DNA from: a virus
DNA length: 21,998 nt
Reading direction: 5' to 3' (one strand)
Virus record (IMG/VR): IMGVR_UViG_3300047667_000484
Coordinates: 1 to 21,998 of that record
Below, piece by piece: positions 3,738 through 18,372 of this stretch. Each line of letters starts with the position of its first letter. Position 1 is the first letter of the stretch. A program made the position numbers and the translations under genes. The notes under the pieces are model-generated. The model was not told the origin of the DNA, made no database searches, and saw only the letters and a list, made by a program, of their open reading frames with translations.

Positions 3738-4062
3738 TTGTTGTGTCCTTTAGGGTTGCTCTTGCAATATGCTGCATCATACCAGCCCTACGCTGACTCC
3801 ATGCTTCATCTGTTAAATCTAGGGTTGCTGGCATGTCAAACCCCATGTGTCCAATCTCTTCTAGTGCTCCCTCAAGCTCTACAATCCGTGGGACTGACAA
3901 AAACATCGCCAAGCTATCAATTGCATCAATATATGCTTGTGCAATGTCAGTACGGGTGTATTCGGTCTGTACTGGGGCTATCCTTAAGCTAAGGGGCGTG
4001 TGGTTCCACGATCCAGTTGTCTTGTTTCCTGTGGCCCATATCTTTTCTGGTGCATCATTCAT
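3730..4062 (-). CDS. Hypothetical phage protein (110 aa)
   Basis: The protein begins MNDAPEKIWATGN, contains TEYTRTDIAQAYIDAI (about 34-49) and an 'RIVELEGALEEI' helix (about 59-70), and ends LKDTTNE. This layout (a 'PExIWA' start, a 'TEYxRxD' segment, then a helix 'RIxELE') is typical of small proteins in phages of alphaproteobacteria; I know of no assigned function. The start has AGGACACAACAA upstream. It is coupled to its neighbours on both sides. Confidence 0.7.
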   Translation of the reverse strand: MNDAPEKIWATGNKTTGSWNHTPLSLRIAPVQTEYTRTDIAQAYIDAIDSLAMFLSVPRIVELEGALEEIGHMGFDMPATLDLTDEAWSQRRAGMMQHIARATLKDTTNE

Positions 4063-4300
4063 TTGTTGTGTCCTCTAGGGCTGCGTGGATGTCCTGCAAT
4101 ACGTGCCATGACCCATCTGTATTGTATTTTTCTTCGACACCTTCAGTCTTTAGCCACCCAAGTTCTATATCATTTGCGGCCCTATTAAGTAGGACCTCAA
4201 GCTCATCAATCCGTGCTTGGGCTGTTGCAAGCCTATATTCTGCGCCAAAACATCTTGCAGCCCATTCCTCTTTCGTCGCGCAATCAATCCCGTAACTCAT
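4055..4300 (-). CDS. Hypothetical coiled-coil protein (81 aa)
   Basis: The protein begins MSYGIDCATKEEWAARCFG, has a heptad-like helix ATAQARIDELEVLLNRAA (about 25-42), and ends ALEDTTNE, nearly the same tail as the next gene because the stop region is shared with the repeated ribosome cassette. No family recognised. The ATG overlaps the upstream stop (ATGA). It is probably a small accessory protein of the early operon. Confidence 0.65.
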   Translation of the reverse strand: MSYGIDCATKEEWAARCFGAEYRLATAQARIDELEVLLNRAANDIELGWLKTEGVEEKYNTDGSWHVLQDIHAALEDTTNE

Positions 4301-4731
4301 TTGATATCTTCCATAAGTTCGCCATTAACCACTGTAAACGTAACAACAGTAACATCACCAATAGTTCTAGTGTAGGATCGTCCACCAGAAATACCAACAG
4401 GGTTACTATCATGTGTATGACGACTATAGTGGTGATGCCCTTGATTGTCAACTACAGTATCAAACGTAAGGTCTTGTACTGAGTCTGCATCTGATATCAT
4501 AATCTGACCGGAGAACAAAGAGTTTAGACCAAAGTACTTGTTACCAAACTCAGGGTGTGGTGTATCTCTATAGTAGATATCTACAGGATACTTACCTAGC
4601 ATCTGTGTAGTACACACGTATTTCACTGGGATACCATCTTGGTCCGAGTAGTGCTTTTCCACTGTTGTAGTGTTAAACAAAGGCTGATGTACAATAATCT
4701 TACCTTCAGGTGTTGTTTGAATAGTGTTCAT
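4297..4731 (-). CDS. Hypothetical protein with a His-rich segment (144 aa)
   Basis: No family recognised. The chain is rich in beta-prone segments (KIIVHQPLF, VKYVCTTQML, VDIYYRD, DVTVVTFTVV), and a histidine cluster HHHYSRHTH lies at about 99-107. The cluster might bind metal, but nothing in the sequence proves this. The ATG at 4731 has GGGAG upstream and overlaps the preceding stop (TAATG). It sits in the leftward operon between paralogous genes and small helical proteins. Confidence 0.7.
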   Translation of the reverse strand: MNTIQTTPEGKIIVHQPLFNTTTVEKHYSDQDGIPVKYVCTTQMLGKYPVDIYYRDTPHPEFGNKYFGLNSLFSGQIMISDADSVQDLTFDTVVDNQGHHHYSRHTHDSNPVGISGGRSYTRTIGDVTVVTFTVVNGELMEDIK

Positions 4732-9686: not shown

Positions 9687-9816
9687 TATGCAGATCGGCT
9701 CTACCTTATGGCCTATGCAGATCGGCTCTACCTTATGGCCTATGCAGATCGGCTCTACCTTATGGCCTATGCAGATCGGCTCTACCTTATGGCCTATGCA
9801 GATCGGCTCTACCTTA
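9687..9816. repeat. Perfect 27-bp tandem repeat array, 4.8 copies
   Basis: Four identical 27-base units start at 9687, 9714, 9741 and 9768; a fifth of 22 bases runs 9795-9816. Each begins TATGCAGATCGG and ends TTATGGCC. There are no spacers and no variation between units. Because 27 is divisible by three the array is open in three plus-strand frames, but no ribosome site precedes any of them. It lies between the divergent promoters and the rightward small genes. Confidence 0.95.
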
Positions 9817-15597: not shown

Positions 15598-15627
15598 TTG
15601 ACATACAATAAATCGTACCTATATACT
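15598..15627 (+). promoter_or_regulatory. Rightward sigma70-like promoter upstream of the RNA/structural arm
   Basis: Consensus TTGACA (15598-15603), 18-base spacer, TATACT (15622-15627), preceded by CCCC. It is the best of a family of sites with CCCTTG, an 18-base spacer and CTATATACT; the others are at 7244-7273 and 15960-15989. Confidence 0.6.
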
Positions 15628-15666
15628 TATTCTATCTTCTTATACAATTGTTTTATACTATTTGTT
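15619..15666. repeat. Duplicated regulatory block, copy 2
   Basis: The first 35 bases are identical to 7265-7299, and 12 more match after one mismatch. The block spans the -10 box and start region of the promoter at 15598-15627, so any factor bound here would affect that promoter. Confidence 0.85.
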
Positions 15667-15835
15667 AAATTAATCAATTTGAATAAAGAAACATAAGTAC
15701 TAAACAATAGTATAGACTAGTTGTTAAATAAATCATATTGATTATCCTACATATTGGTTAGAACAATAGTATAGAGTAACTATTAGGTATATGTAATACT
15801 GACTAGCTACAGATTGTAGTAAACAATTGTATAGA
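15641..15835. promoter_or_regulatory. Second cluster of AACAAT(T/A)GTATAGA elements
   Basis: Direct copies lie at 15703-15716, 15762-15775 and 15822-15835, about 60 bases apart, with a reverse-complement form at 15641-15652 and a diverged one at 15655-15666. The copy at 15762 shares upstream TTGGTTAG with the copy at 7409 (CTGGTTAG). They are likely binding sites for one phage or host protein. The rest of 15667-15950 is AT-rich with no gene. Confidence 0.6.
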
Positions 15836-15959
15836 GAGTACATTATCTATCCTTTCTTTATTGTAGGTAAACAATAAGAGTATTGCTGTAGGCAAAGAGA
15901 AATATGTATAAACCTTTTATTAGATATCAACTAGTTATAAGATAATTATGTACTAGCCC

Positions 15960-15989
15960 TTGTAATATACAAAATAGTTCCTATATACT
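15960..15989 (+). promoter_or_regulatory. Rightward promoter-like site
   Basis: TTGTAA (15960-15965), 18-base spacer, TATACT (15984-15989), preceded by CCC and with the same CTATATACT string as the site at 15598-15627. It points into the structured RNA region. Confidence 0.45.
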
Positions 15990-16039
15990 AGCTCAAGACG
16001 AACAAGAAACTACATATCTCCTCAACATTTACCTAGTGA

Positions 16040-16069
16040 TGACAGTAGCTCCTTGTTCGTTTATATACT
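16040..16069 (+). promoter_or_regulatory. Promoter-like site abutting the structured RNA
   Basis: TGACAG (16040-16045), 18-base spacer, TATACT (16064-16069) within TTTATATACTAGG. The predicted start, near 16076, falls just before the first hairpin. CTTGTTCGT (16052-16060) in the spacer can pair with ACGAACAAG (15998-16006) or, as GTTCGTT, with AACGAAC (16090-16096). Confidence 0.45.
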
Positions 16070-16160
16070 AGGCCACAGCCCCGCAAGGGAACGAACGTGT
16101 CACATCGGTTATGAATCTTGCCTAGCAGCGTGAGATAAAGAGACACAGCCAGCTCCAACT

Positions 16161-16261
16161 CTAAGCCGCATTGATGTGGTGTGAAAAAGAACGGCAACGT
16201 CGCCTAGATATACTTAGAGTGTTGCGGTGACGCTAGAACCATTTCACACCTCATGAGCGCG
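16161..16261 (+). repeat. Structured RNA module, copy 1
   Basis: The 24 bases at 16161-16184 are identical to 16400-16423, and the 18 bases at 16244-16261 match 16472-16489 with one difference. The two elements pair: GGTGTGAAA (16178-16186) with TTTCACACC (16242-16250), then ATG/CAT beyond one T-T mismatch. The insert can form GCAAC/GTTGC (16194-16198/16221-16225) or GTCGCC/GGTGAC (16199-16204/16226-16231), which interleave and are probably alternatives. Confidence 0.75.
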
Positions 16262-16399
16262 GAAGTGCTAAGTAATACGTTGGGCCTTCGGGTTGACAAC
16301 AGGGGTAAAACCCACTGAACGGGGCAGCAGTATACCAGCGGCAGAATGGTGGCGTCGATCCCCGCGACCATGACAGACCGGATAGACGGTCAACCTATA

Positions 16400-16489
16400 C
16401 TAAGCCGCATTGATGTGGTGTGATGTTCCATAGTTGGGTCCATGTGGCGCGGACCCTTATATAAGCCACCATCACACCACATGAGCGCG
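16400..16489 (+). repeat. Structured RNA module, copy 2, with H-type pseudoknot
   Basis: The closing stem is perfect: ATGTGGTGTGA (16413-16423) with TCACACCACAT (16472-16482), 11 pairs. The insert forms stem GGGTCC/GGACCC (16436-16441/16451-16456). Its loop element GTGGC (16444-16448) pairs with GCCAC (16465-16469), leaving loops of 2, 2 and 8 bases. This is classical H-type pseudoknot geometry. The insert is unrelated in sequence to that of copy 1. Confidence 0.75.
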
Positions 16490-16623
16490 TTTGATATGCC
16501 TCGCTCTTTAAACATCAGAAGCATACCGCGTAGCGCTCCACAGCCAGACCGTAAAGGTCAATAGTGGACGGTTGGCAGCGGCAACCAATAACAAATCCCT
16601 TACATACCTAGAAAGATAGCCCA

Positions 16624-16983
16624 TTGGCAGATAAACTCCCCTTTTGTGGTAAGATTGCTGCTCGTGTGAAGAAGCTTGAAGCAGATGGCCTAGCACGCAC
16701 TAGAATCTTCGATGGTATCCAAAACTACCAGAATGCACCAAAGTCTATGGCTACCTTCTATAAGTTGTACCGTACAACTATGGATGAGGTTCACGCGGAT
16801 ACTGCTAGTGAAATTGGCGGTCTGGTTGTTAAGCAAGCTAAAGAGGGTGACTTCAAGTCCCAAGAGTTTTACCTCCGCTCTAAAGGGGGTTGGTCCCCTC
16901 AGTCCACTGAAATTCATGTAGAAGATACAGAAGTCTCAACTACAGCCCTTGATAAGATTAAGTCTATGCTAGGGAAGAAATAA
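16624..16983 (+). CDS. terS: Terminase small subunit
   Basis: 119 aa from a TTG start; an in-frame TAG at 16609-16611 and the lack of an early ATG leave no better choice. The ribosome site is weak. A helix-turn-helix-like N-terminal region (about 10-50: RVKKLEADGLARTRIFDGI...SMATFYKLY) would bind packaging-site DNA. The segment VVKQAKEGDFKSQEFYLRSKGGWS (about 68-91) matches the 'A..GD...xFYLKxxGGWS' signature of small terminases. Its place 18 bases upstream of the large subunit supports the call. It should recognise phage DNA and deliver it to the large subunit for packaging. Confidence 0.85.
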   Translation: MADKLPFCGKIAARVKKLEADGLARTRIFDGIQNYQNAPKSMATFYKLYRTTMDEVHADTASEIGGLVVKQAKEGDFKSQEFYLRSKGGWSPQSTEIHVEDTEVSTTALDKIKSMLGKK

Positions 16984-17001: not shown

Positions 17002-18372
17002 ATGGACTTACATTCTTCTGATCTTAAGAAGCTGCCAAAAGAAGATGTAGATAAGGCCCTTGCCCAACTGTCACCGGATGAGTGGGAAGAGTTGCTATAC
17101 AATTGGAAGTTTTGGGCTAGGCCTAATCAACTAGCTCCTACTGATAGTGCTTGGAAGGTTTGGTTGCTCAACTGTGGACGTGGTTTCGGCAAGACTAGAA
17201 CTGGCACTGAGTGGGTACGAGAACAGATCAAGCTAGGGTATGACCGTATTGCTGTTGTAGGGCCTACAAAGGGTTCTGTTAGACAGGTTATGGTCGATGG
17301 TGAGTCTGGGCTACTGAGCGTATGTTCTCCCTCTGATAAGACTTACTCAGGCGTTCACATTGGTAAGCCTATTTGGTCCCCAACTAATAACACAATCACA
17401 TGGGCTAACGGTGCTAAGGCTGAAGTCTTTAGTGCAGAAGACCCTGAGAGACTACGTGGGCCTCAGTTTCAAAAGGCTTGGTGTGATGAGATTTGCGCTT
17501 GGACCCGTAGAGATGAAACTTGGGATATGCTCCAGTTTTGTATGCGTCTAGGTGATAACCCTCAGATTGTAGTTACAACAACACCTAAGCCTGATAAGCT
17601 CATCAGACGCCTTACATCACCTGAGATGGTAGACAGTGGCAAAGTAGTTATCACACAGGGTAGTTCCTATGATAACGCTGATAACATTGACCTTGATGCT
17701 CTTAAGCAGTATGAGGGTACTCGGTTAGGTAGACAAGAGCTATACGCTGAAATCCTAACTGAAGCTGCTGGCGCACTTTGGAACAAGGAGATGCTTGAGA
17801 ATTGTCAGGCACCTGAGATTGAGGACGTACTTGAGTTCTCCACTACCTTAGCTAGAATTGTAGTATCTATTGACCCTGCTATTACAGCCAACAAACATTC
17901 TGACTTAACAGGTATTATGGTTGCTGGTATTGATATCAACGGTACTGGATACATACTAGAAGATGCTACAGGTAACTACACACCTGAAGCTTGGGCTACT
18001 AAGGCTGTAGAGCTTTATATTAAGTACAAAGCTGATCGTATCATTGCTGAGAGAAATCAGGGTGGTGACATGGTTAGGCACACGCTTAAGACTGTAGACG
18101 AAACAATCCCCATTACATTGGTACACGCCTCAAGAGGTAAGTACGCACGTGCTGAACCTGTATCAGCTTTATATGAGCAAGGCAAGATTAAACACGTAAG
18201 AGGTCTAATGGAGCTTGAGGACCAGATGGTTACTTGGGAGCCTCTAGACTCTATTGGTTCACCTGACAGGCTTGATGCTATGGTATGGGCCATTACTAAC
18301 TTGCTCCTTAACAACAGGATACAGCCTAAGTTAGAACTCGTATATAAATCATCACAAGGCTTTTTGAACTAA
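17002..18372 (+). CDS. terL: Terminase large subunit (packaging ATPase and nuclease)
   Basis: 456 aa. The ATPase has Walker A GRGFGKT (59-65), Walker B AWCDEICAW with Asp162-Glu163, and a TTTPKP coupling motif (192-197). The RNase H-like nuclease has SIDPAI (Asp291), HSDLTG (Asp301), AERNQGGD (Glu350) and PDRLDAMVWA (Asp422/Asp425). The 'GRGFGKTRTGTEWVRE' region is typical of Terminase_6/GTA- and HK97-like large subunits rather than T7 gp19. It drives DNA into the procapsid and cuts the concatemer. Its stop overlaps the next start (TAATG). Confidence 0.94.
   Translation: MDLHSSDLKKLPKEDVDKALAQLSPDEWEELLYNWKFWARPNQLAPTDSAWKVWLLNCGRGFGKTRTGTEWVREQIKLGYDRIAVVGPTKGSVRQVMVDGESGLLSVCSPSDKTYSGVHIGKPIWSPTNNTITWANGAKAEVFSAEDPERLRGPQFQKAWCDEICAWTRRDETWDMLQFCMRLGDNPQIVVTTTPKPDKLIRRLTSPEMVDSGKVVITQGSSYDNADNIDLDALKQYEGTRLGRQELYAEILTEAAGALWNKEMLENCQAPEIEDVLEFSTTLARIVVSIDPAITANKHSDLTGIMVAGIDINGTGYILEDATGNYTPEAWATKAVELYIKYKADRIIAERNQGGDMVRHTLKTVDETIPITLVHASRGKYARAEPVSALYEQGKIKHVRGLMELEDQMVTWEPLDSIGSPDRLDAMVWAITNLLLNNRIQPKLELVYKSSQGFLN

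Follow-up and report, generated by a model that had tools for sequence, protein, structure and literature searches.

Gene setting of the RNA region

The window analysed here is a virus fragment of 21,998 bases from IMG/VR. A split DNA polymerase and a primase-helicase are encoded on its - strand, and the terminase large subunit (TerL) and portal proteins on its + strand; a 27-bp tandem repeat (9687–9816; 4.8 perfect copies) lies where the two gene blocks meet. The window TerL shares 60% identity with that of Roseobacter phage CRP-6, and the putative small subunit gene (terS) that precedes it has no PHROG match (Table 1).

An earlier note, made from the bare sequence, had placed a large structured RNA and no convincing gene at 16071–16590. 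No + strand open reading frame (ORF) of at least 50 aa is present between 15508 and 16624 in the ORF list of the window, in line with that claim, and the ORFs that overlap 16071–16590 are all on the - strand, with lengths of 54–62 aa. The G+C content of the RNA region, which forms the 3' half of the gap, is 46–54%, compared with 21–29% just upstream. An AT-rich direct repeat of 31 nt, present in three copies spaced exactly 59 nt apart, lies upstream of the RNA (15644–15792) and represents possible operator or origin repeats.

Three promoter-like sites sharing TATACT and an 18-base spacer had also been reported. Two of them stood, both on the + strand, with TTGACA and TTGTAA as their -35 elements, but the third TATACT (16063–16068) has no scored -35 element at this spacing. 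The TTGTAA site is the likely start of the RNA.

Table 1. Features of the RNA region and the adjoining genes. Positions are those of the window.
Feature	Position	Strand	Basis or detail
Sigma70-like promoter TTGACA-18-TATACT, far upstream	15598–15627	+	11/12 consensus match; consensus only
Sigma70-like promoter TTGTAA-18-TATACT	15960–15989	+	9/12 match
Putative RNA 5' domain, stem GUGUC/GACAC	16071–16161	+	Sequence and MFE fold
Unit 1	16162–16262	+	Covariance model R2 match, 71.3 bits, 1e-12; covariation over 49 rows
Unit 1 linker AAG, segment A CCGC, then AUUG, AUG	A 16166–16169	+
Unit 1 P2 stem, then CAU	16178–16184/16244–16250	+
Unit 1 segment B GAGCGCGG	16255–16262	+
Unit 2, P1/P2 part	16401–16490	+	R2 match, 74.3 bits, 2e-13
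Unit 2 segment A	16405–16408	+
Unit 2 P2 stem	16417–16423/16472–16478	+
Unit 2 segment B GAGCGCG	16483–16489	+
Unit 2 P3 arm	16483–16538	+	B GAGCGC 16483–16488 : C GCGCUC 16533–16538, 6 bp
Possible H-type pseudoknot in unit 2 P2 arm	16436–16469	+	Read off sequence
Pseudoknot stem 1, GGGUCC/GGACCC	16436–16441/16451–16456	+
Pseudoknot stem 2, GUGGC/GCCAC	16444–16448/16465–16469	+
Putative terminase small subunit, first downstream gene	16624–16983	+	Homologues in 24 IMG/VR loci; directly before TerL
Terminase large subunit	17002–18372	+	PHROG 979, 38, 2

One unit is present in two copies

Relative to shuffled sequences, the folding energy of the + strand of 16071–16590 has a z-score of -2.5 (2 of 100 shuffles were equally good) and that of the - strand a z-score of -0.6; for the two modules alone the values are -3.1 and -3.6. 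The repeated module described in the earlier note was confirmed, with 24 of 24 positions identical between 16161–16184 and 16400–16423 and, in a second block, 17 of 18 between 16244–16261 and 16472–16489. Its count of seven or more hairpins proved loose, many of the predicted stems being arms of the two repeated units, but the presence of structure above chance is upheld by the comparative data given below. We conclude that the region carries a + strand structured RNA, best read as one unit in two copies, 16162–16262 and 16401–16538. The domain 5' of unit 1 has no homology to the 5' domains at other loci.

A family of phage RNA units

Exact matches to a 22-base module were found in two other IMG/VR contigs, at two or three copies each, upstream of a terminase small subunit gene or another phage gene. 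Pattern scans added true members (part of L028–L044), a common 3' element used as query gave L065–L075, and BLAST identified one isolate phage, Octadecabacter Antarctic DB virus 2, which infects Octadecabacter sp. IceBac 430 and has the RNA at about 38100–38365 of MW805364. A covariance model was built from 17 units, rebuilt from 28 and followed by two final scans, for a total of 51 matches (E values 3e-15 to 3e-6) that correspond to 49 distinct units at about 42 loci from IMG/VR and the isolate phage; these units share ancestry and their counts are not numbers of independent events. The consensus is (AAG) CCGC(G) WUUG AUGnGG-P2-CCnCAU GAG(S)CGCGG-P3-CCGCG(S)YUC AAC, with a joint that is near-invariant across units and a P3 arm that directly abuts the P2 hairpin.

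Looser core patterns gave only chance matches in IMG/VR and GTDB, with P2 not complementary. No true member turned up among 84,980 species of bacteria and archaea scanned with a fixed pattern that core variants would escape, and on this sequence evidence the family therefore looks confined to phages. Model R2 had no match in 385 alphaproteobacterial genomes, a weak result since the scan was run without a positive control. The regions of CRP-6 and MW202777 contain no match to the unit, and the module is absent from all of the loci with terS homologues (L004–L027) apart from L022, which is the same as L003. Since TerS relatives (L004–L021, L023–L027) and CRP-6 lack the RNA, it behaves as an accessory element that is probably mobile.

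Covariation in P2 and a recurrent partner for P3

Homologous intergenic regions had been suggested as the place to look for covarying pairs, and P2 provided them. In the 49-row alignment of distinct units, which was fitted to the covariance model, 98.8% of P2 cells are paired and there are 53 two-sided changes, spread over six of the ten pairs, compared with 7.9 in shuffles (0 of 500 as high) and at most 19 in slid controls. The signal was repeated in a MAFFT alignment of 17 units fitted to no model (16 cells; 0 of 500 shuffles).

Segment C, the partner of B in P3, was left out of every covariance model. A segment C that pairs with B over at least 6 bp is nevertheless present 56–133 nt 3' of B in 46 of the 49 units, against 31% of shuffled DNA, and in 39 of the 49 (9% expected) segment C is followed by an A-rich AA/GA/AG flank. 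A clean P3 partner is lacking in L043, in one L002 unit (the third, at 1581) and in window unit 1, where no good segment C was found. In unit 2 of the window the P2 arm may also contain a pseudoknot (Table 1), the second stem of which is retained in the arms of L003, L068 and L002.

Several features distinguish the two strands. P3 cells include 29 G-U and no A-C pairs, and the cells of the A3 alignment 11 G-U against one C-A. Sigma70-like sites with at least 9/12 matches lie within 250 nt upstream at 22 of 40 loci, compared with 11% of random segments, and the antisense strand of the 40 homologous loci has none. By these sequence criteria the RNA strand is the + strand. The initial proposal of a large structured + strand RNA upstream of the terminase genes is supported, with stems that covary.

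A joint with two alternative pairings

Segment B (GAG(S)CGCGG) is complementary both to the upstream segment A, forming P1, and to the downstream segment C, forming P3. Because the same strand fits both partners and the two helices overlap, P1 and P3 are mutually exclusive. Table 1 gives the segments in the window. One-base insertions are present in A, B and C together in L072 (two units), L075, L076, L106 and L107, and these coordinated insertions may go back to one evolutionary event. L071 has the extra base in A and B and a damaged P3, a pattern that suggests that P1 is maintained for its own sake. As A:B is almost invariant, covariation is absent from P1 apart from the common insertion; the need for one strand to fit two partners would explain the near-invariance of the joint. 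When single units were folded thermodynamically, P1 was favoured in most and P3 in some, including unit 2 of the window.

We consider it fairly probable that the joint has two states, P1 and P3. RNA polymerase starting from the nearby sigma70 promoter would transcribe A-P2-B first, allowing a P1/P2 hairpin to form; as C emerged, B would switch partner to give P3 stacked on P2, releasing A together with the AAC/AAG linkers.

Cassette-like exchange of the arms

At a cut-off of at least 0.91 identity, to which these counts are restricted, five unit pairs have P2 arms that are 91–98% identical and P3 arms that are 34–59% identical, and a further five pairs have P3 arms at 91–99% and P2 arms at 55–61%; background arm identity has a mean of 54% and a maximum of 66%. 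Thus one L003 unit shares its P2 arm with L028 (96%) and has an unrelated P3 (47%), and L028 in turn shares its P3 with L091 (99%) and has an unrelated P2 (61%). Between window unit 2 and L068 the P2 arms share 91% identity and the P3 arms are unrelated (34%); with the first unit of L003, the P2 identity of window unit 2 is 84%. Single-linkage clustering of P2 arms at 0.68 chained unrelated arms together and was dropped. L070 and L073 appear to have cleanly lost one unit between conserved joints. As judged from these sequence comparisons, the P2 and P3 arms swap independently between phages and the conserved joints stay fixed.

Neighbouring genes and RNAs

At most loci the RNA lies 50–1000 nt upstream of co-directional phage genes, usually those for terminase, which are of unrelated types (PHROGs 1482, 51 and 2538 for TerS; 979, 38, 3717 and 2/10250 for TerL). 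The next gene is convergent in L035, L041, L102 and L107, in the case of L041 with its end abutting segment C, and the third unit of L002 lies before a different gene, as do L028 and L067. Since the next gene can be convergent, the RNA is not simply a leader, and the processed leader of the structural transcript that had been suggested does not hold as a rule. In L089, a borderline abiF RNA match (3903–3939; 39.9 bits, cut-off 37) lies between the unit and terS; no abiF gene was seen there, the element resembles an intrinsic terminator, and the match may be false.

tRNAs recur beside the units. A tRNA-Ser(UGA) occupies the position of a unit inside the RNA arrays of L065 (3024–3110) and L070 (5784–5870), and in L098 the linker AAUCAUUCUAAG joins the unit to a tRNA-Met directly 5' of it. 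The P3 arm of L107 matches the tRNA model above the Rfam cut-off (31.6 bits), those of L042 (28.9 bits) and L075 (27 bits, tRNA-Sec) match weakly, and hairpins like a T-arm were recognised by eye in L035, L074, L086 and L106; the majority of P3 arms do not resemble tRNA. One kind of linker (AACCUAUUCUAAG and variants) is common to units, real tRNAs and tRNA-like arms. No tRNA, and no tRNA fold over a unit, was found in the window, and neither ARAGORN nor Rfam gave a tmRNA match in the window or related loci.

Further elements were observed at some loci. One of about 110 nt lies 3' of units in L031 (978–1085), L035 and L069; it has the sequence GGCUUGCUAGGUCGGRAUA...AAGUCCUCACGGUGYCG...CAGGGGGCAACCUA and no Rfam match. 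An uncatalogued RNA common to Arthrobacter, Pectobacterium, Dickeya and Enterobacter phages was seen in L039 (about 4180–4400, - strand), L077 (3001–3127), L078 (3001–3073) and L079 (3001–3049). The L039 element, beside a unit, resembles a hammerhead-bearing RNA. The L077 sequence can be read as a full type-I hammerhead, with GCGG/CCGC as stem I and GUA as the cleavage triplet, that scores under the Rfam cut-off; the halves of the RNA seem to be in permuted order between phages.

Relation to known RNAs

The window gave no Rfam match at gathering score, and the only ones at related loci were to tRNAs and the borderline abiF. At E ≤ 10 the single match in the region was to an RNA thermometer, which we regard as chance. 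GOLLD and ROOL, which assemble into homo-oligomeric cages, had no match even at E ≤ 10 in window positions 15900–16700, nor at gathering score in related loci. Like the units, they are large structured phage and prophage RNAs of unknown function that are often found near tRNAs (PMC12286853); in contrast, the units are tandem, have exchangeable arms and mostly lie beside terminase genes. Of the two identities offered in the earlier note, a distant GOLLD or ROOL relative is thus not supported and a new class is.

RNAs linked to phage tRNAs are known (PMC10879173), and phage tRNA operons and theta ribozyme-tRNA units likewise contain tRNAs or tRNA-like arms as units with common linkers; however, nothing in a tRNA corresponds to the conserved joint or to P2, and no ribozyme model matched. 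Prophage hammerhead ribozymes are also intergenic in phages and often occur several per transcript (PMC3088659), and one adjoins a unit in L039, but the units themselves lack a hammerhead core. Strings from the core recovered only chance matches in unrelated papers in PMC. As the RNA could be assigned to no known family and its core appears in PMC only in unrelated papers, there is little doubt in our minds that it represents a new phage family of structured noncoding RNAs, made up of tandem units.

Possible functions

Because units, tRNAs and tRNA-like arms share a linker, the transcript may be tRNA-operon-like. The role that we rank first, tentatively and from sequence comparison, is a stand-alone noncoding RNA of this kind that folds by strand exchange, and action in trans is put forward with similar caution. 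Units would fold independently and host RNA-processing enzymes would probably cut them apart, yielding stable RNAs with a trans-acting or scaffolding role; the 3' end would be expected near CGCGCUUC-AAC.

The main rival, a cis-acting leader of the late operon, is possible but rather unlikely. Abutting hairpins would bind elongating host RNA polymerase, or the P1/P3 switch would control whether transcription reads through into the genes for terminase and structural proteins. Attenuators typically have mutually exclusive pairings of this sort, and HK022 put exerts its suppression of termination via the zinc-binding domain of the RNA polymerase beta' subunit. The put RNA (about 70 nt) likewise has two stem-loops side by side, close to the start of a transcript that host RNA polymerase makes from a phage promoter (PMC9378689). 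The units similarly lie 3' of sigma70-like promoters, and at most loci they are followed by terS/TerL genes belonging to several unrelated types. Unlike the units, put acts in cis in early operons; its placement before a co-directional operon is shared by most loci but not by the four with a convergent gene, and the units upstream of a different gene also argue against a leader. We know of no P1/P3-type exchange, cassette swapping or tRNA company for put.

Less likely again is a counter-defence locus, in which the fixed joint would be a display scaffold and the rapidly swapped P2 and P3 arms, tRNA-like ones included, decoys for those host defences that depend on RNA or cut tRNAs. If so, phages of one habitat would trade decoys through short conserved joints.

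A new self-cleaving ribozyme, with a conserved junction core, two variable arms and the conserved YUC-AAC strand as a possible place of cleavage, is improbable: the near-invariant core with free distal arms, the clean loss of a unit in each of L070 and L073 and the hammerhead-like RNA adjoining the L039 unit would fit, but the A:B and B:C pairings account for most of the conservation and no Rfam self-cleaving ribozyme model matches the units. A likeness to Twister-sister seen by eye (GCGCUCA) was matched by no model.

A packaging RNA acting with terminase, as phi29 pRNA does in forming the ring on the portal that packaging needs, is very improbable; position upstream of terminase genes in most loci is the only argument for the packaging role raised at the outset, and the same unit is found with terS and TerL from several unrelated families, TerS relatives and CRP-6 lack it, and some copies are not beside terminase genes. 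Equally improbable is a DNA element (cos/pac, TerS-binding repeats or a recombination site) merely resembling RNA, for although repeats lie before terS and cassettes are swapped at conserved joints, one site is common to several TerS families, and the compensatory changes in P2, with G-U but almost no A-C, show selection on a + strand RNA. A short conserved ORF from AUGAGCGCG (MSA...) was rejected by eye for its chance-like open lengths, lack of a Shine-Dalgarno sequence and frame drift between L003 and L034.

The units thus constitute a phage RNA class covered by no Rfam family, in which one joint strand has two alternative partners. About 50 natural variants with independently recombining arms offer a series for tests of co-transcriptional strand exchange, and the isolate phage-host pair (Octadecabacter) renders the family testable. 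It provides an entry point to the question of why phages keep ornate RNAs beside terminase genes and tRNAs.
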